DNA from: Desulfuromonadales bacterium
GTDB lineage: Bacteria > Desulfobacterota > Desulfuromonadia > Geobacterales > Pseudopelobacteraceae
Length of the DNA stretch: 64,000 bases
Reading direction: 5' to 3'
Assembly (NCBI GenBank): GCA_013349325.1
Contig: DUZX01000010.1
Span: 37,027-101,026 of the forward strand
The position numbers and the translations under genes were made by a program. Below the pieces are notes generated by a model, which was given only the letters and a program-made list of their open reading frames with translations, ran no database searches and had not been told where the DNA came from. Numbering within the stretch: position 1 is the first letter of the stretch; every line of letters begins with the position of its first letter. Shown piece by piece: positions 14,553-28,978 of the stretch.

Positions 14553-17450
14553 TTGAACACCCCTTACCACGCCAAATACTATGCTGCCGAACTGTTGCGC
14601 AGGTCTGCGTCCGATGACATTGATAAACTTTCGATGTCATTGTTTGATGCCTCGGTTGACCTGAACCCGCATCAGATTGAAGCGGCCTTGTTCGCCTTCC
14701 GCTCTCCCCTGTCCAAAGGGGTGCTGCTGGCGGATGAGGTCGGCCTGGGCAAGACAATCGAAGCAGGGCTGGTGCTTTGCCAATATTGGGCAGAGCGTCG
14801 TCGCCGGCTTATCGTCATTTGCCCGGCATCGTTGCGCAAGCAGTGGAGCCTGGAACTGGAAGAAAAATTCAACCTGCCGTCGGTCATCCTCGAAGCCAAA
14901 TCCTTTCGCGATGCCATCAATGCCGGTAATGACAATCCGTTCCAACAGAATGCTGTCATCATCACATCCCTGAACTTCGCCACGGTAAAGAAAGAGACCG
15001 TCAAGCTGGTTCCTTGGGACTTGGCGGTTATTGACGAAGCGCACAAGCTGCGCAATGCCTACCGACCAAGCAATCGTATGGGGCAAAGCATCCGCTGGGC
15101 GCTGGAAGACCGCAAGAAACTACTGCTCACTGCGACTCCCCTGCAAAACTCCCTGCTGGAACTGTATGGGCTATCTACCCTTATCGATGACTTCATCTTT
15201 GGCGACCTGCCTTCCTTCCGTGAGCAATACACCGGCGGTAATGCCGACCTGGATAACCTGAAACGTCGTCTTGCCGGTTTCTGCAAGCGCACGCTGCGGT
15301 CGCAGGTGCTGGAATATATCCGCTACACTGAACGTCGCCCTATTACCCGTCCATTTCGCCCTTCCGACCAGGAACAGGCGTTGTATGAGGCAATATCCGC
15401 ATTCCTGCAACGCCCGGACACCTACGCCATTCCCGCCCGGCAGCGAACTCTGACCGTGCTGATTATCCGCAAGCTGTTGGCATCTTCTTCCTCTGCGGTC
15501 GCGGGAACGCTGGATACTATCCGCACTCGGCTGGAAGCCATACGTGCCGGATTGCCGGCACCGGAAAACCTGCTGGAAGAGCTGGTTGATGGCGATGAAC
15601 TGGGTGATGACTTCCTTGAAGAAGAGCAAGAAACAGAAGAAAACCCCTCCCCAGCCCTCCCCTTATCAAGGGAGGGTGCTGAATTTACCCCCCTGACAAG
15701 GGGGGGCGTTGAATTTGACCGAGCCAAGCTGGATGCTGAAATAGCCGAACTTGACCGCTATGCACAATGTGCACGCTCTATCTCTGTGGATACCAAGACC
15801 CGCACCCTCTGCACTGCCATTGATATCGGTTTTGGCGAAATGGAGAAGATGGGGGCACCGCGCAAGGCGCTTGTCTTCACCGAAAGCCGGCGGACGCAGG
15901 ACTATCTGAAATCGTTTCTCGAAGCCAACGGTTTTGCCGGGCGTATCGTTGTTTTCAATGGGACCAACTCCGACCCTGAAAGCAATGCCATATATAACCA
16001 ATGGCTAAACACCAATGCGGGCACTGGTCGTATCAGCGGTTCCAAAACTGCTGACAAGCGCAATGCACTGATTGAACATTTCCGCGATGGTGCTGACATC
16101 ATGCTTGCCACCGAAGCGGCCGCCGAAGGTGTCAACCTGCAATTCTGTTCATTGGTCGTCAACTATGACCTGCCGTGGAACCCGCAACGGATTGAACAGC
16201 GCATCGGTCGTTGCCACCGCTACGGCCAGAAGCATGATGTGGTGGTGATAAACTTCCTCAATGAGCGTAATGACGCTGACCGGCGTGTGTATGAATTGCT
16301 GACCGAAAAGTTCAACCTTTTCTCTGGCGTCTTTGGCGCATCCGATGAAGTGTTGGGCACCATCGAGACAGGCGTGGACTTTGAACGCCGGGTATTGCGG
16401 ATATATCAGGAATGCCGGTCGGAACAAGAGATTGAGACCGCTTTTGCCGCATTGCAGGCAGAAATGGAACAATCCATCGCCTCCCGTATGGACGATACCC
16501 GCAAGGCGCTGATGGAACATTTCGATGAAGATGTGCATACCCGCTTGAAAGTGCGGCTTGACCAGACCCAGCACAGCCTCGACCGGTTCAGTAAACTGTT
16601 CTGGTCAGTCACCAAATCGGTCCTGGCCGAAAATGCCCGCTTCAACGATACGGACATGACCTTTGACCTGCATGCGGCACCGGCTGCCATGTCCATCGGA
16701 ACCTATCATCTCATATCCAAAACCCGCCAGAATGTGGAAGGGGCTTTCCTTTACCGGCTTTCCCATCCATTGGGTGAATATGTTCTGAACAGTGCCTTGG
16801 AAACCGTTACACCCGAAGCCGAACTGCGCTTCAACATTAGCGGTCATCCGACACGGATTGCAATGGTGGAAGCCCTGAAAGGCACTTCCGGCATCCTGAC
16901 GCTGGAACGGTTAAGCATTACCTCCTTTGATACCGAAGAACATCTGCTGTTCAGCGCTCTGACTGACAAAGGTGAAACACTTGACCAGGAACAGTGTGAA
17001 AAGCTTTTTCAATGCGGTGCCGAAGTTCTGCCGACTGTTATCGACAAAGGCATTAAAGAGCTCAGCGTTGCAATTGACCGCCATGCAGTTGCCACGGTCA
17101 ACCGTTCGATTGATGCAAACAACCGCCATTTTATGGATGAAAGAGACAAGCTGGAAAAGTGGGCTGATGATTTGATTATTGCTGCGGAAAAGGATTTGAA
17201 AGACACCAAGGCAAAAATAAAACTGCTGAACCGGCAATCACGACAGGCCACTACAACTATCGAACAGGTTGACCTGCAAAAGCAGATTGCCGAGCTGGAA
17301 AAGAAGCAACGTCGTCAACGGCAGAAGGTCTTTGATGTTGAAGATGAAATAATTGAAAAACGTGATGGCTTGATAAACGGGCTGGAAGAACAGCTATTAC
17401 AAAGAGTTGAGCGGCAACCGTTGTTCACAATTCGCTGGTCAGTGATATAA
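14553..17450 (+). CDS. SNF2/RapA-type DEAD/DEAH helicase
   Basis: Walker A ADEVGLGKTIEAGLV, DEAH box AVIDEAHKLRN, helicase C motif VNYDLPWNPQRIEQRIGRCHRYGQ. Confidence 0.95.
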   Translation: MNTPYHAKYYAAELLRRSASDDIDKLSMSLFDASVDLNPHQIEAALFAFRSPLSKGVLLADEVGLGKTIEAGLVLCQYWAERRRRLIVICPASLRKQWSLELEEKFNLPSVILEAKSFRDAINAGNDNPFQQNAVIITSLNFATVKKETVKLVPWDLAVIDEAHKLRNAYRPSNRMGQSIRWALEDRKKLLLTATPLQNSLLELYGLSTLIDDFIFGDLPSFREQYTGGNADLDNLKRRLAGFCKRTLRSQVLEYIRYTERRPITRPFRPSDQEQALYEAISAFLQRPDTYAIPARQRTLTVLIIRKLLASSSSAVAGTLDTIRTRLEAIRAGLPAPENLLEELVDGDELGDDFLEEEQETEENPSPALPLSREGAEFTPLTRGGVEFDRAKLDAEIAELDRYAQCARSISVDTKTRTLCTAIDIGFGEMEKMGAPRKALVFTESRRTQDYLKSFLEANGFAGRIVVFNGTNSDPESNAIYNQWLNTNAGTGRISGSKTADKRNALIEHFRDGADIMLATEAAAEGVNLQFCSLVVNYDLPWNPQRIEQRIGRCHRYGQKHDVVVINFLNERNDADRRVYELLTEKFNLFSGVFGASDEVLGTIETGVDFERRVLRIYQECRSEQEIETAFAALQAEMEQSIASRMDDTRKALMEHFDEDVHTRLKVRLDQTQHSLDRFSKLFWSVTKSVLAENARFNDTDMTFDLHAAPAAMSIGTYHLISKTRQNVEGAFLYRLSHPLGEYVLNSALETVTPEAELRFNISGHPTRIAMVEALKGTSGILTLERLSITSFDTEEHLLFSALTDKGETLDQEQCEKLFQCGAEVLPTVIDKGIKELSVAIDRHAVATVNRSIDANNRHFMDERDKLEKWADDLIIAAEKDLKDTKAKIKLLNRQSRQATTTIEQVDLQKQIAELEKKQRRQRQKVFDVEDEIIEKRDGLINGLEEQLLQRVERQPLFTIRWSVI
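15643..15712 (+). repeat. Palindromic repeat within the SNF2 helicase ORF
   Basis: ccctccccttatcaagggagggtgctgaattt followed by ccccctgacaagggggggcgttgaattt: two adjacent hairpin units, open in frame. Confidence 0.8.
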
Positions 17451-18615: not shown

Positions 18616-21600
18616 ATGTCTGACAACCTGAATAAACTCAAAGCAATTCTGCGGGAAATGTTTCAGCTCGACCAAGCCGACCTGGACTTTGGCATTTACC
18701 GCATCATGAACCAGAAGCGGGACGAGATTGAACAATTCCTCGACCGCGACCTACTGCCACAGGTGAAGACAGTCTTTGCCGGTTTTCAGGGTGATGACCA
18801 GAGCAGCGTCCGGGATGAAATGGACAAACTGAAAAAGACATTGGAAGACGCCGGTGTGGTTGCGGAAACGTCGCCAAAATATCAGGCGCTGCAAGCCAAG
18901 CTGTCTTCATCGGTAGATGTATCGGCACTGGAAAACGAAGTATTTTCTCAACTCACCAACTTCTTCCGTCGCTACTATAATGGGGGAGACTTCCTGTCTC
19001 TGCGCCGCTACAAGGCGGGCGTCTATGCCATTCCCTACGAAGGGGAAGAGGTAAAACTTCACTGGGCGAACGCCGACCAGTATTACATCAAGTCTTCGGA
19101 AAACTTCCGCGATTACACCTTCAAGCTGCCATCCGGCAAGCGGGCACACTTCAAGCTGGTGGACGCCTCCACCGAGCAGAACAACAAGAAGGAGCAAGCC
19201 GGCGCTGAACGGCGATTCTATCTATCAGACGGGGAGACACGGGGACAAGGAGATGGGGGGAGGTTTATTGAGGAGAAGGATGGGGAGATTTATATTTATT
19301 TCCAGTATGCCCCGCATCCGGAAAACAAAAAACAATCTCAGCTCAATACCGAAACAATCGAAGCAGTCAGAGCCTTTTTCTCCCAGTCCCCCAGTCACCC
19401 CTTCCCCCAGTCAGCCTTTCAACCCGCTCCGACCGAGAAGAACACCAAGCGCACCCTGCTGGAAAAGCACCTGAACGACTACACTGCCAAATATTCTTTT
19501 GATTACTTCATCCACAAAGACCTTGGCGGTTTCATGCGCCGGGAGCTGGACTTTTTCATCAAGAACGAAATCCTCTTTATCGATGACCTGGATGCCGACC
19601 ATGTGAAGGCCACAATCTCAAAGGTGAAGGTCATCAAGGAAATCGGGCACAAGGTCATTGCCTTTCTGGAACAGTTGGAAAACTTCCAGAAGAAGCTTTG
19701 GCTGAAAAAGAAATTTGTGGTGGAGACCGGCTATTGCAGCACACTTGACAAAGTGCCGGAAGAGTTGTATCCGGCCATTATTGACAATGCTGCACAGTTG
19801 GAAGAATGGAAGCGGCTCTTTACTATCCAGGATATTGAAGGGGATTTGCACACACCCAAATATACTGACCCGCTGACAGTGGCGTTCCTGAAAGCCAATC
19901 CCTTCCTTGTTATTGATACAGCTTTCTTTGACTGTGAGTTTACGGAAAAGCTGCTGGCGTCGTTTGATAATCTGGACGAGGCAACAAATGGTCTGTTGGT
20001 GCATAGCGAGAATTTTCAAGCGTTAAACCTGTTGGTAGAACGTTTTAGGGGGCAAGTGAAGTGCACTTATATTGACCCTCCCTACAATACTGGAGATGAT
20101 GGCTTTCCTTACAAAGATAATTATCAGTATTCGAGCTGGCTCAGCATGCTGGACAGTAGAATAACAATCTCCCGTGAACTGCTCAGCAGTGAAGGACTGT
20201 TTTTCTTGCAAATCGGTGATGATGAAGCCGGCCGCTCAAGAATTTTAGTGGAAAATATTTTCCCTGAGCGCAAAAACTCTGTAGTTGTGCGCCGTGGGGT
20301 AAAGAATGTTCAAGCTCAGTTTAACGACATTGATAAGCTTAACTTGGGGCATGACGTAATTCATGTTTGTGCCAACAAGGCTGGTACCCGGCTACCACAT
20401 CTACGGCAAAAACTTGAGGCGGAAAAAGCCGGTAAGTTTGATACGTTTTGGAGAGGTACTGATAGAGGCACAATGAGATATGAACTATTTGGTCAAACCC
20501 CTTCTACTGGTCAATGGCGCTGGGAGAAGGGGCGAGCAACTAAGGCAAAAGACGACTACATTTATTATCTGCAAAATGAAAGTGAAAATAAATCCCTTGA
20601 TGATTGGTATGTCGAAAATCTACAAGCTGGCACTGACCTTGATTTTGTTCGCTTGAATGAAGAAAATGTTGTTCAGTATTACGTCCCACCACAAGGACAT
20701 AAGTTAGTAAGCGACAACTGGCTTGATGTTACCTCGACCGGCAGTTTGACTGACTTCCCTCATGAAAAAGGACTGGCGCTTCTACATAGAGTTATTTCAT
20801 GGAATACGGCACCTAACGATTACATCCTTGATTTTTTTGCTGGTTCCGGTTCAGTCGGACATGCTGCATTCTCTTTCCCTTTGGGCCACTCCCAATCACG
20901 TCGATATATTCTTATAGAAATGGGAGAATATTTTGATACGACGTTGAAGCCCCGCTTAAAAAAATATATTTACTCTAAAGAATATATCAACGACAAGCCT
21001 GTCTCACGTAAAGGCTCCAGCCATATGTTCAAATACATCCGGCTGGAGAGCTACGAAGACGCCCTCAATAACTTGCAGCTAAAACGCACGCCGGAGCAGG
21101 GCAGTCTGCTCGAACAGCACGATAAGCTGCGTGAACAGTATATGCTCTCGTATATGCTGGATGTGGAAAGCGCCGGCAGCACATCCCTCTTGAACGTATC
21201 GGCCTTCGCCGATCCGTTCAACTATCGTATGAATATTGCCCGTGGCAATGAAACCAAGGAAACGGTTGTTGACCTGGTGGAAACCTTCAACTGGCTATTG
21301 GGCATCAAGGTGCTGCGTATCAGCCAGAAGGATTGTCGCACGGCTGATTTTGAGCGAGATGGAGAGGGGCGGTTGCAGATTGTCAAGGGGAGTATGCGTA
21401 AGGCAAATCCCCCCCAGCCCCCCTTTATCAAGGGGGGAGCTGAAAACCAATCTTCAGACAATTTTCACTGTAATCAAGGTGTTAAGTCCCCCTTGATAAA
21501 GGGGGATTTAGGGGGATTTGCCTTTCAGGAAGTTGAAGGCCAAACCCTTTCCGGGGATAAGGTGCTTATCATCTGGCGCACCTTGACCGACAACCCGGAG

Positions 21601-21786
21601 CAGGACAATCTGATGCTGGATGCATGGTTCGGCAAGCGCAACTACAACACGCTTGATTTCGAATTCTCCCGCATCTATGTCAATGGCGACAATAATCTTG
21701 AAAACCTGAAAATCGGTGAAGAGCGTTGGAAGGTGGCGCTGATTGAGCAGGAATTCAAGAAGCTGATGTTCGATGTGGAGGTGTAG
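18616..21786 (+). CDS. Type III Mod-like site-specific DNA (adenine-N6) methyltransferase
   Basis: Motif IV TYIDPPYNTGDD precedes motif I DFFAGSGSVGHA (beta-class order); ~450-aa N-terminal region. Confidence 0.92.
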   Translation: MSDNLNKLKAILREMFQLDQADLDFGIYRIMNQKRDEIEQFLDRDLLPQVKTVFAGFQGDDQSSVRDEMDKLKKTLEDAGVVAETSPKYQALQAKLSSSVDVSALENEVFSQLTNFFRRYYNGGDFLSLRRYKAGVYAIPYEGEEVKLHWANADQYYIKSSENFRDYTFKLPSGKRAHFKLVDASTEQNNKKEQAGAERRFYLSDGETRGQGDGGRFIEEKDGEIYIYFQYAPHPENKKQSQLNTETIEAVRAFFSQSPSHPFPQSAFQPAPTEKNTKRTLLEKHLNDYTAKYSFDYFIHKDLGGFMRRELDFFIKNEILFIDDLDADHVKATISKVKVIKEIGHKVIAFLEQLENFQKKLWLKKKFVVETGYCSTLDKVPEELYPAIIDNAAQLEEWKRLFTIQDIEGDLHTPKYTDPLTVAFLKANPFLVIDTAFFDCEFTEKLLASFDNLDEATNGLLVHSENFQALNLLVERFRGQVKCTYIDPPYNTGDDGFPYKDNYQYSSWLSMLDSRITISRELLSSEGLFFLQIGDDEAGRSRILVENIFPERKNSVVVRRGVKNVQAQFNDIDKLNLGHDVIHVCANKAGTRLPHLRQKLEAEKAGKFDTFWRGTDRGTMRYELFGQTPSTGQWRWEKGRATKAKDDYIYYLQNESENKSLDDWYVENLQAGTDLDFVRLNEENVVQYYVPPQGHKLVSDNWLDVTSTGSLTDFPHEKGLALLHRVISWNTAPNDYILDFFAGSGSVGHAAFSFPLGHSQSRRYILIEMGEYFDTTLKPRLKKYIYSKEYINDKPVSRKGSSHMFKYIRLESYEDALNNLQLKRTPEQGSLLEQHDKLREQYMLSYMLDVESAGSTSLLNVSAFADPFNYRMNIARGNETKETVVDLVETFNWLLGIKVLRISQKDCRTADFERDGEGRLQIVKGSMRKANPPQPPFIKGGAENQSSDNFHCNQGVKSPLIKGDLGGFAFQEVEGQTLSGDKVLIIWRTLTDNPEQDNLMLDAWFGKRNYNTLDFEFSRIYVNGDNNLENLKIGEERWKVALIEQEFKKLMFDVEV
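19225..19420. repeat. G-rich / C-rich repeat pair inside the methyltransferase ORF
   Basis: gacggggagacacggggacaaggagatggggggagg (19228-19262) and ttctcccagtcccccagtcaccccttcccccagtcag (~19378-19415). Confidence 0.6.
21400..21524. repeat. MITE-like inverted repeat inside the methyltransferase ORF
   Basis: aaggcaaatcccccccagccccccttt-atcaagggggg near-matches the reverse complement of cccccttgataaagggggatttagggggatttgcctt; read in frame as NPPQPPFIKGG...SPLIKGDLGGFAF. Confidence 0.85.
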
Positions 21787-21822
21787 AATCAGTTATTCGA
21801 AAATTTCGAATAACTGATTCTA
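21784..21822. terminator. Perfect 39-nt palindrome at convergent gene ends (probable bidirectional terminator)
   Basis: tagaatcagttattcgaaa-a-tttcgaataactgattcta; 19-bp arms, contains the stop codons of both flanking genes. Confidence 0.7.
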
Positions 21823-22206
21823 CCATTCTGTTCTCACCGGATAGCGGCTGATATGTGTATCCGGGGTGAGTATGGTCATGCCGCCAGCAATTGCCTGACA
21901 GATGATAATACGGTCAAACGGGTCTTTGTGATATTCCGGCAGGCGGGATAGCTGAAGTACGGCGGCTTCATCAAGCGGCAAGGTTTCTATCCGATGACGA
22001 ATGCGGTTGATTTTGATAAAATCGTGTGGAAGTTCTGGCAACGGCAGCTTACCCAAGTTGTGTTTTACGATAATCTCCCATGCTGATGCTACGCTAAGAT
22101 AAATATCATTTGAGGGGTCTTCAAACAGACGACGGGCAGTCAAGGACAATTCAGGACTATCGGAAACAAGCCAGAGAAACGAGCAGGTATCCAAAAGGAT
22201 GTTCAT
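21820..22206 (-). CDS. PIN domain toxin (VapC-like)
   Basis: MNILLDTCSFLWLVSD, ASAWEI, DPFDRIIICQA acidic PIN motifs. Confidence 0.9.
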   Translation of the reverse strand: MNILLDTCSFLWLVSDSPELSLTARRLFEDPSNDIYLSVASAWEIIVKHNLGKLPLPELPHDFIKINRIRHRIETLPLDEAAVLQLSRLPEYHKDPFDRIIICQAIAGGMTILTPDTHISRYPVRTEW

Positions 22207-22448
22207 AGCGACTTGCCGGAAAACAGCGCGATGGTTTCTTCGGGAAGTTCATCAAAAAATGAGGCGGGCAGCGTGAATGTTCCTTTAGCGAGACCAATCG
22301 GGCGTTTAGTCGCAACCTTGCTCATAATAGGACGTATTTCCGCAATTGGCTTGTTTCGTTTGCAGAGAATAAAGCTCTCTCCCTTTGCAACCTCGTCGAG
22401 ATAGTGGGAAAAATGGGTTTTGGCTTCTTGAACGTTTATAGTTATCAT
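22203..22448 (-). CDS. Phd/YefM-type antitoxin
   Basis: MITINVQEAKTHFSHYLDEVAKGESFILCKRNKPIAEIRPI. Confidence 0.9.
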   Translation of the reverse strand: MITINVQEAKTHFSHYLDEVAKGESFILCKRNKPIAEIRPIMSKVATKRPIGLAKGTFTLPASFFDELPEETIALFSGKSL

Positions 22449-22489
22449 AGTAGTTGAATAGTAAACCAGCTAGTTGGTCAGGTCAAGAA

Positions 22490-22595
22490 ATCTGATGGGG
22501 TGACAAGCAGACTGGGTGATGGGGTGACAGTGAGATGGGGAGACTGGGTGTACTCTGTTTCTCCCGGTCTACCCATCTGCCCATCCCCATGTCAG
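22490..22595. repeat. G-rich then C-rich low-complexity repeat upstream of the four-helix-bundle ORF
   Basis: gatggggtgacaagcagactgggtgatggggtgacagtgagatggggagactgggtg...ctcccggtctacccatctgcccatccccat. Confidence 0.7.
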
Positions 22596-23014
22596 AATCA
22601 AGTGGGAGCAAGGGGCAAAATCTGAAAATTCAAAATCATAAAGACCTGTACGTGTGGCAACTCGCAATGGATTCCGCCATGCATATTTATGAGGCGACCA
22701 AGAAGTTACCGACAGAGGAAAAATACTCCCTTGTTGACCAGATTCGCCGCTCGTCACGTTCAGTTGCGGCAAATATTGCGGAGGCGTGGCGAAAGCGGCG
22801 CTATGAAGCTGCCTTTGTCGCAAAATTGAGCGACGCTGAAGCGGAAGCGTGCGAGACGCAGACATGGCTCGAATTCTGTAAACGCTGCGGATACCTGCCA
22901 GAATCAAGGACAACCGAACTTGACCGGATGTACGATGACATCCTCGGTAAACTTATTGCCATGATAAACGGTGCCAAAAACTGGACAATAATCAAAACAA
23001 AGGATTCTAAATAA
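22535..23014 (+). CDS. Four-helix-bundle protein (S23/IVS family); native start probably internal
   Basis: KDLYVWQLAMDSAMHIYEATKKLPTEEKYSLVDQIRRSSRSVAANIAEAWRKR. Confidence 0.88.
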   Translation: MGRLGVLCFSRSTHLPIPMSESSGSKGQNLKIQNHKDLYVWQLAMDSAMHIYEATKKLPTEEKYSLVDQIRRSSRSVAANIAEAWRKRRYEAAFVAKLSDAEAEACETQTWLEFCKRCGYLPESRTTELDRMYDDILGKLIAMINGAKNWTIIKTKDSK

Positions 23015-26650: not shown

Positions 26651-28978
26651 TCAACCCCTTTTTCCCGTTTTCCATCCGGCCACAGCCGCCTGCCCCAGTG
26701 CGATACAACCATCATTGGGGGGTGTCAGACGATGAGTGAAAACATTCAACCCCTGTTTAGTCAACGCAGTATAAAGCATTTCACTCAAAAGGCGATTCTG
26801 AAAAACACCGCCCGAAAAAATTACCCGGTCAACGCCGGACGATGTGGCGATCTGCAGGCAGATATCAGATGCCGCCGTTGCAATAGTCTGATGGAAACGG
26901 CAGGCAATCTCTGAGTTTGGAACGTCAGCGGCCATGTCAGTCAGAATGTCCGGAAACATCGCAGAAAAGTCGATTTTGAGCGGCATTCCGTTATCGCAGA
27001 GTATGGCATACGAATAGACCCTGCCGTGATAAAGTGAGACCGGGTGGGATTGTACGTCTTCAGCCAACGCCTCCAACTCAATTGCCGCCTGACCATCATA
27101 CGACACAAAATGGCGGAGATTGAGTAGAGCAGCAACGGCATCAAACAGGCGGCCACAGCTGGAAGTCAGCGGCGAATTGATCCCGCGCCGCAGCATCTGG
27201 GCAAACAGTGCCCGCTCGGTCTCTGGTAAAACTGTTGCAACCGGATGATCATTTGTAAAAGCTGCTTCACCCAAGGCCTGATACAGATACGCCATCGCCA
27301 TACGCCACGGCTCACGAACGGCGGCATCACCGCCCGGCATTGGTACCGGACAGAAATGGGCCGCCCGGCGATAGCTGCCATAGCTGCCCGTCAGAAATTC
27401 ACCACCCCAGATAGTGCCGTCGTCACCATAACCGGTGCCGTCAAAGATGATTCCGATAACATCTCCCTCCAGGCCGTTCTCTGCCATACAGGCCGCCAGG
27501 TGGGCGTGGTGATGCTGCACCTTTACCAGCGGAAGCGCGCTATCCTCGGCAAAGCGGGATGAGAGATAATCGGGGTGCAGGTCACAGGCCACCAGTTCCG
27601 GTTTGATGGCTAGAATTTCAGAGAGGTGAGTGATGGTGTGACTGAAAGAGTCAAGCGTCGACTGATTCTGCAGATCACCGATATGCTGACTTAGAAAGGC
27701 GTGATTACCGGTGGCAAGACAGACCGCACTTTTCAACTCAGCACCTGTTGCCAACAGTGGCGGAACTGAGAACGGGAGCGAGACAGTGCGCGGAGCATAG
27801 CCACGGGCTCGGCGGTAAAAGAGCGGTTGTCCCTGAAAAACGCGCATGACGGAATCGTCGCTGCGGATGTGGATCGCCCGATCATGCAGCAGGAAATAGT
27901 CGGCAATGCCGGTCAGACGCTGCTGGGCATCTTCATCATCGTAGGCCACCGGTTCGTCGGAAATATTTCCGCTGGTCATGACGAGAGCTTCGAAAGAGTG
28001 GTGAGGTGTGAGGGGTGAGGCGTGAAACAGCAGATGATGCAGGGGGGTGTAGGGGAGCATGATACCTAGCCAGCCGTTATTCGGGGCAATCAGAGGTGAG
28101 AGTGCCGTACCCGGTTGTTTTCGTGCTATTACGATTGGTGCTTCTGACGAAGATAGTAATCGTTCTTCCATAGCGTTTAGTTGCAGCAGCGCGCGGGCCG
28201 TCTCAAGATCGGCAACCATGATGGCGAACGGTTTTTCATCACGCTGTTTTCGTTCCCGTAGTCTCTGTACGGCGTCATGGTTACCGGCATCAACTGCCAG
28301 ATGGAACCCGCCAACGCCTTTGATTGCAAGGATGGCGCCGTCTATTAGAAGTTGAATGGATTGAGTCAGGGCATCTTCTTTTTCAGAGAGCAGATCACCA
28401 GAGGAGTTCGTGAGCCGTATCTGCGGGCCGCAGGTGTGACAGGCGATCGGTTGGGCGTGAAAGCGCCGGTCAAGCGGGTCGTGGTACTCATGCAGGCAGT
28501 CCGGGCAGAGCGGAAAATCAACCATGGTAGTGTTAGGGCGATCATAGGGAACTCCGGTGATGATGCTATAGCGAGGTCCGCAGTTGGTACAGGTAATAAA
28601 GGGGTAGTGAAAGCGGCGGTTGTCAGGATCGAGGAGTTCACGTAGGCAGTCTTTGCAGAGCGCATAATCAGGGGCGATTCGGGCATCGGCGATGCCATTG
28701 CTGCTGGAAAGAATGACGAATGTGTTTTCATTGCGGAGTGGGATTTCTTCAGCTGAAATCGAACTGATTGCCGCCAGAGGCGGCGCTTCTGAGGAGAGGG
28801 CGCGCTCAAACGTAGCCAATGCCTGGTCAGCTCCCTGGATTTCGATCTCTACTCCGGCAGGGGAATTGCGCACCCATCCGGAGAGCTCCAGTTCATGAGC
28901 CAGGCGGTAGATAAAAGGACGAAAACCGACGCCCTGTACTATGCCGGTGATTTTATAGTGCTGGCGGATCAGAGGCAT
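26651..28978 (-). CDS. hypF: Carbamoyltransferase HypF
   Basis: Acylphosphatase domain GIVQGVGFRPFIYRLA, zinc fingers CKDCLRELLDP/CPDCLHEYHDP, VQHHHAHLAACMAENGL. Confidence 0.97.
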   Translation of the reverse strand: MPLIRQHYKITGIVQGVGFRPFIYRLAHELELSGWVRNSPAGVEIEIQGADQALATFERALSSEAPPLAAISSISAEEIPLRNENTFVILSSSNGIADARIAPDYALCKDCLRELLDPDNRRFHYPFITCTNCGPRYSIITGVPYDRPNTTMVDFPLCPDCLHEYHDPLDRRFHAQPIACHTCGPQIRLTNSSGDLLSEKEDALTQSIQLLIDGAILAIKGVGGFHLAVDAGNHDAVQRLRERKQRDEKPFAIMVADLETARALLQLNAMEERLLSSSEAPIVIARKQPGTALSPLIAPNNGWLGIMLPYTPLHHLLFHASPLTPHHSFEALVMTSGNISDEPVAYDDEDAQQRLTGIADYFLLHDRAIHIRSDDSVMRVFQGQPLFYRRARGYAPRTVSLPFSVPPLLATGAELKSAVCLATGNHAFLSQHIGDLQNQSTLDSFSHTITHLSEILAIKPELVACDLHPDYLSSRFAEDSALPLVKVQHHHAHLAACMAENGLEGDVIGIIFDGTGYGDDGTIWGGEFLTGSYGSYRRAAHFCPVPMPGGDAAVREPWRMAMAYLYQALGEAAFTNDHPVATVLPETERALFAQMLRRGINSPLTSSCGRLFDAVAALLNLRHFVSYDGQAAIELEALAEDVQSHPVSLYHGRVYSYAILCDNGMPLKIDFSAMFPDILTDMAADVPNSEIACRFHQTIATAASDICLQIATSSGVDRVIFSGGVFQNRLLSEMLYTALTKQGLNVFTHRLTPPNDGCIALGQAAVAGWKTGKRG
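28000..28024. repeat. Low-complexity repeat within hypF
   Basis: gtgaggtgtgaggggtgaggcgtga, read in frame as HASPLTPHHS. Confidence 0.5.

Follow-up and report, generated by a model that had tools for sequence, protein, structure and literature searches.

The type III DNA methyltransferase gene mod of this Desulfuromonadales bacterium contains an inverted repeat within its reading frame, which raises the questions of what this repeat is and what spreads it. We examined the window, the whole 64,000-nucleotide stretch of DNA analysed here, together with related genomes. The assignment to the Mod class is supported by the N6_N4_Mtase domain, a type III methyltransferase profile, and a nearby Res partner. 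The gene and the parts of its insert are as follows.

18625..21786, + strand: host gene, type III Mod methyltransferase (N6_N4_Mtase), 1053 amino acids, from domain and profile matches
21400..21524, + strand: whole Mod insert, two inverted units and a spacer, covering residues 926-965 and flanking codons
21405..21437, + strand: unit B', tail AAATCCCCCCCAG and then hairpin CCCCCCTTTATCAAGGGGGG (21418-21437)
21438..21483, + strand: spacer between the Mod units, about 46 bp
21484..21519, + strand: unit A', AAGT, hairpin CCCCCTTGATAAAGGGGG (21488-21505), and tail ATTTAGGGGGATTT

The first-pass annotation had described near-identical inverted repeats of about 37 bp with about 50 bp between them, read in frame as NPPQPPFIKGG...SPLIKGDLGGF, and both descriptions were borne out. 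The arms (21400-21436 and 21488-21524, 37 nt each) lie 51 nt apart and pair at 33 of 37 positions (89% complementary). The Mod reading frame is open across the insert, and the peptide K-A-NPPQPPFIKGG...SPLIKGDLGGF forms residues 926-965 of the 1053. The insert is a pair of units of about 35 bp, each with a tail beginning AAATCCCCC and a hairpin CCCCCTTTATCAAGGGGG, and the tails point outward. When at most three mismatches were allowed, the hairpin core CCCCCTTTATCAAGGGGG had 6 matches in the window, compared with 0.03 expected. A single strand of the insert gave a predicted fold of -38.4 kcal/mol as DNA (z -7.2) and of -69.2 as RNA (z -8.3), neither of which was matched by any of 200 shuffles. 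A search of Rfam with the repeat returned only sub-threshold matches to miRNA hairpins, which we read as generic hairpin similarity, and literature searches by the exact sequence and the peptide of the repeat gave no relevant match.

A search of the genome for further copies, as suggested in the first-pass annotation, found four paired copies (C2:39507, C2:41077, C25:8293, and C35:36183), all intergenic and with inward tails, as well as single units at C1:134915 and C1:151353. The hairpin core was present in 36 of 76 genomes of the family, usually as part of an imperfect palindrome, about 86-92 bp long, that joins a type A arm to a type B arm. The order in Mod (B', spacer, A') is reversed relative to this form. 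Among 277 genomes of the class, 20 had the outward two-unit form seen in Mod; a looser pattern found it in 35 of 395 genomes of the phylum. Some units stand alone and others in tandem arrays, and a unit resembling A' is present on cyanobacterial and Acinetobacter plasmids.

In a scan of spaced unit pairs, genes for DUF559 (PF04480, Vsr-like) surfaced unasked between or beside the units. Matched hairpins stood on both sides of 23 of 27 DUF559 loci, compared with 0 of 43 Y1_Tnp loci and 0 of 156 random places; this first test was not fully blind, because the hairpin rule and thresholds were fixed after the first DUF559 loci had been inspected. In an extended set of 61 DUF559 loci, which includes three loci fetched twice, 58 had at least one hairpin, 40 had hairpins on both sides, and 3 had none nearby. 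Hairpin density was 7.45 per kb within 150 bp of DUF559 and less than 0.5 per kb in nearly all bins beyond 300 bp. A plasmid set from other phyla, which is more independent than the first test, gave at least one hairpin at 14 of 16 DUF559 genes and both at 8 of 16, compared with 11 of 320 and 1 of 320 for shuffled flanks.

The hairpins are also matched to the gene that they flank. The left and right hairpins of the same DUF559 gene agreed at 0.92, compared with 0.75 after shuffling, and hairpin flavour clustered on the DUF559 tree (17 changes versus 31.7); in one clade (100/97), 12 of 14 rows carried the Mod flavour. The DUF559 genes of the window's own genome that were placed on the tree all fell outside this clade; the matches on C18 and C29 sit in longer open frames, and that of C29 was not on the tree. 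Two-unit repeats flanking one own-genome DUF559 gene are multicopy in the genus. A search for an empty site of an own-genome DUF559 cassette was negative, and neither a target-site duplication nor an empty site was seen for any other DUF559 cassette. The copies in G616 were rejected as proof of transposition, because the multicopy cases there, like some in G282 and G461, are located inside larger duplicated segments. A DUF559 protein of Caulobacter, VsrA, has been described as a Vsr-like PD-(D/E)XK protein (PMC12907096), and 3hrl is a solved endonuclease-like relative. A literature link between DUF559 and palindromic repeats was not found in open-access full text, and a published report elsewhere is possible.

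The Mod insert probably belongs to a superfamily of palindromic repeats associated with DUF559, as a non-autonomous member made of two units, which DUF559 would have spread and which is tolerated in Mod. The members of this superfamily would be short C-run/G-run palindromes, and each flavour tends to flank a separate clade of DUF559, a Vsr-like PD-(D/E)XK family. We infer that DUF559 is the mobiliser of the units: in a cassette of the form units-DUF559-units, the nuclease would spread the units, perhaps through cuts in target DNA and subsequent repair from a unit-bearing copy.

Alternatively, the units may have spread by other means, and DUF559 may be a passenger gene that landed in them or is carried by them. 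Two genomes hold units without DUF559 (G001, and G576 with 24 inside-out matches), and neither excision nor insertion of a DUF559 cassette was observed. We nevertheless consider this alternative unlikely. Against it stand the agreement of left and right flavours at one DUF559 gene, the tracking of DUF559 phylogeny by flavour, the nearly uniform spacing (0-21 bp) that separates the unit cluster from the open reading frame, and the recurrence of the DUF559-hairpin pairing across phyla.

The units resemble the REP and REPIN sequences mobilised by RAYT (Y1 transposase, TnpA-REP) in being palindromic, 20-40 bp long, multicopy, and mainly intergenic, with a conserved one-sided tail and a frequent arrangement as inverted pairs. 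REPs inside genes, sometimes DNA repair genes, are also already known (PMC3733652). However, the tail here is AAATCCCC, not GTAG or CGTC, and the units are tied to DUF559 genes rather than to Y1 transposases. When we started from the elements, 10 of 136 two-unit clusters lay within 21 bp of DUF559 and none of the 136 within 300 bp of a Y1 gene, the general hairpin rule found hairpins on both sides of none of the 43 Y1 loci, and a direct scan beside Y1/RAYT genes found no units. A RAYT/Y1 partner was rejected on 60 loci from 19 other genomes and 5 own-genome loci, essentially none of which was flanked. Mobilisation as a classic REP or REPIN is thus very improbable.

The first-pass annotation had called the element MITE-like, which is apt for its dispersed copies and inverted ends; nevertheless, it is composed of two REP-like units with outward tails, and no transposase with matching ends was found. 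We give very little credence to a classic MITE, left by deletion from a DDE-type insertion sequence whose ends it would share. The elements do have terminal inverted repeats, dispersed copies, and a length (80-125 bp) within the 70-300 bp of MITEs, but no recognisable transposase lay between unit pairs 0.5-2.5 kb apart at the loci examined, no target-site duplication was found at the sites compared, and the units also stand alone or in tandem arrays. As for a possible autonomous partner with the same ends, DUF559 cassettes share the units. The MITE Chunjie of Geobacter uraniireducens, which was inserted into an operon (PMC10969869), is likewise short, dispersed, and bounded by inverted repeats; it differs in its length of 178-235 bp and its direct repeats, and in that the units here are also solitary.

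Comparison of Mod homologues supported an insertion, though not a clean one. The insert is absent from the nearer orthologues of G134 and G084, which both have the short loop PRTC(A/T)(A/V)GEGWTF, and from all 39 distant homologues aligned, in which the site is a length-variable loop. The site measures 122 bp in the window and 26 bp in G134, a net gain of 32 codons, and about 26 bp were replaced. The target-site duplication for which the first-pass annotation had proposed a search was not visible at the Mod insert or at that of HypF, in comparisons of genomes that are not near-identical strains. Ordinary length variation of a low-complexity loop, with no inserted repeat, would fit the variability of this loop among homologues but is scarcely credible and already contradicted by the near-identical units found elsewhere in the genome and genus and by the one short loop that the two orthologues share.

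The insert, as a member of the DUF559-associated superfamily, would have entered mod in the window's lineage or, alternatively, would have been lost in two others. It appears to have landed in the variable loop ahead of a beta strand in the C-terminal region; in an AlphaFold model of residues 790-1053, the insert is a low-confidence coil followed by a confident strand. Most reading frames of the units are open, which would explain why the Mod frame was kept. Changes in the flanks of the site are mainly synonymous (pN/pS 0.19/0.77 upstream and dN/dS 0.063/1.08 downstream). These ratios suggest that both flanks are under purifying selection, although most of the divergence may predate the insert, and Mod is presumably still functional with it. 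In the Mod protein of Luteimonas (L084), the corresponding loop holds a different C-run/G-run peptide, PHPNPPPPAGEG.

A second gene of the window carries a related insert.

14553..17450, + strand: SNF2/DrmD-like helicase gene, containing the second insert
15643..15711, + strand: second-flavour in-frame insert in the SNF2 helicase gene (CCCTCCCCTTATCAAGGGAGGG ... CCCCCCTGACAAGGGGGG), from hairpin comparison

The core of this insert had been thought to resemble that in Mod, as if one repeat family had hit both genes. The likeness holds at the level of the C-run/G-run hairpin, whereas the unit sequences differ; the SNF2 insert is of a second flavour, and therefore "one family, two genes" is only loosely right. 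Its first unit is identical at 22 of 22 positions to the hairpin adjoining a DUF559 gene of G061. In the SNF2 orthologue of G134 (L085), the site is occupied by an outward two-unit element of the first (Mod) flavour; as judged from these sequences, the SNF2 site has hosted two repeat flavours.

In-frame copies are not limited to these two genes. An open frame, with at least 40 codons on either side, ran through 28 of 131 two-unit clusters, which were selected by pattern rather than at random; 2 of the 28 were taken as spurious. Besides Mod, about 20 gene families have in-frame units, and a Pfam check of 20 insert-bearing proteins gave domain matches in all 20, including MmeI-type, HsdM, and Eco57I methyltransferases, UvrB, UDG, Cas4, GlnE, AcrB, CobB, HypF, and others. 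When the UvrB of G041 is aligned with its closest solved relative, the match extends to either side of the insert and skips it. Five relatives hold a full in-frame two-unit element in HypF, and the window's own hypF probably retains a decayed single unit, to judge by its sequence.

27014..27051, - strand: probable decayed single unit in hypF

A restriction of in-frame inserts to DNA-processing genes was considered and dropped, as HypF, GlnE, AcrB, CobB, and others also carry them. DNA-processing genes are possibly over-represented, at about 9 of 19 host families, a raw count without a background rate. The palindromic elements of Rickettsia are likewise selfish DNA that has entered unrelated protein genes in frame (PMC10969869, PMC3733652), and here too the element is open in frame inside otherwise conserved genes (Mod, UvrB, HypF, MmeI, and others); the organisms differ, and the likeness is one of description.

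In-frame palindromic inserts are thus known, and the matched, phylogenetically coherent tie to a small Vsr-like nuclease offers a testable candidate for what spreads many such repeats. We tentatively suggest, with less confidence than for the Mod insert itself, that DUF559 genes and their cognate palindromic units may constitute a kind of very small mobile element, about 0.5 kb long and present in several phyla, that has so far gone unrecognised. Non-autonomous derivatives of two units would then seed bacterial genomes and insert in frame into protein genes. This wider link is the part most worth following: if true, it would give a widespread domain of unknown function a role and would account for inserts of the NPPxPPFxKGG type, rich in proline and glycine, that occur in annotated proteins.

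Several minor observations were made. On C25 of the window's own genome (G000, L024:12270-15260), an MmeI-type restriction-methyltransferase gene carries an in-frame element of the second flavour, which separates the target-recognition domain from the C-terminal one. In G061 and G062 (L235, L247), DUF559 is fused in frame to a Cas4-like protein via a unit-encoded peptide. On Sphingomonas plasmids (L471, L477), DUF559 lies within operons, where it separates sufB from sufC or the subunit genes of a transhydrogenase from each other, and a GIY-YIG nuclease gene is listed at sufBC in Azospirillum lipoferum. A search for DUF559 relatives on viral contigs gave only 3 weak matches. The phage-like contig IMGVR_UViG_3300035670_001258 (L285, L287) has arrays of units between genes, some in tandem, and DUF559 adjoins one array. 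Near the host gene, a perfect 20-bp inverted repeat with 1 base between the arms (21783-21823) spans the Mod stop codon beside the convergent vapC and is a possible terminator. The vapBC-like genes and a four-helix-bundle (23S IVP) gene (21820-23014) separate mod from res, whereas in G134 mod directly adjoins res, and a vapC homologue lies downstream of res.
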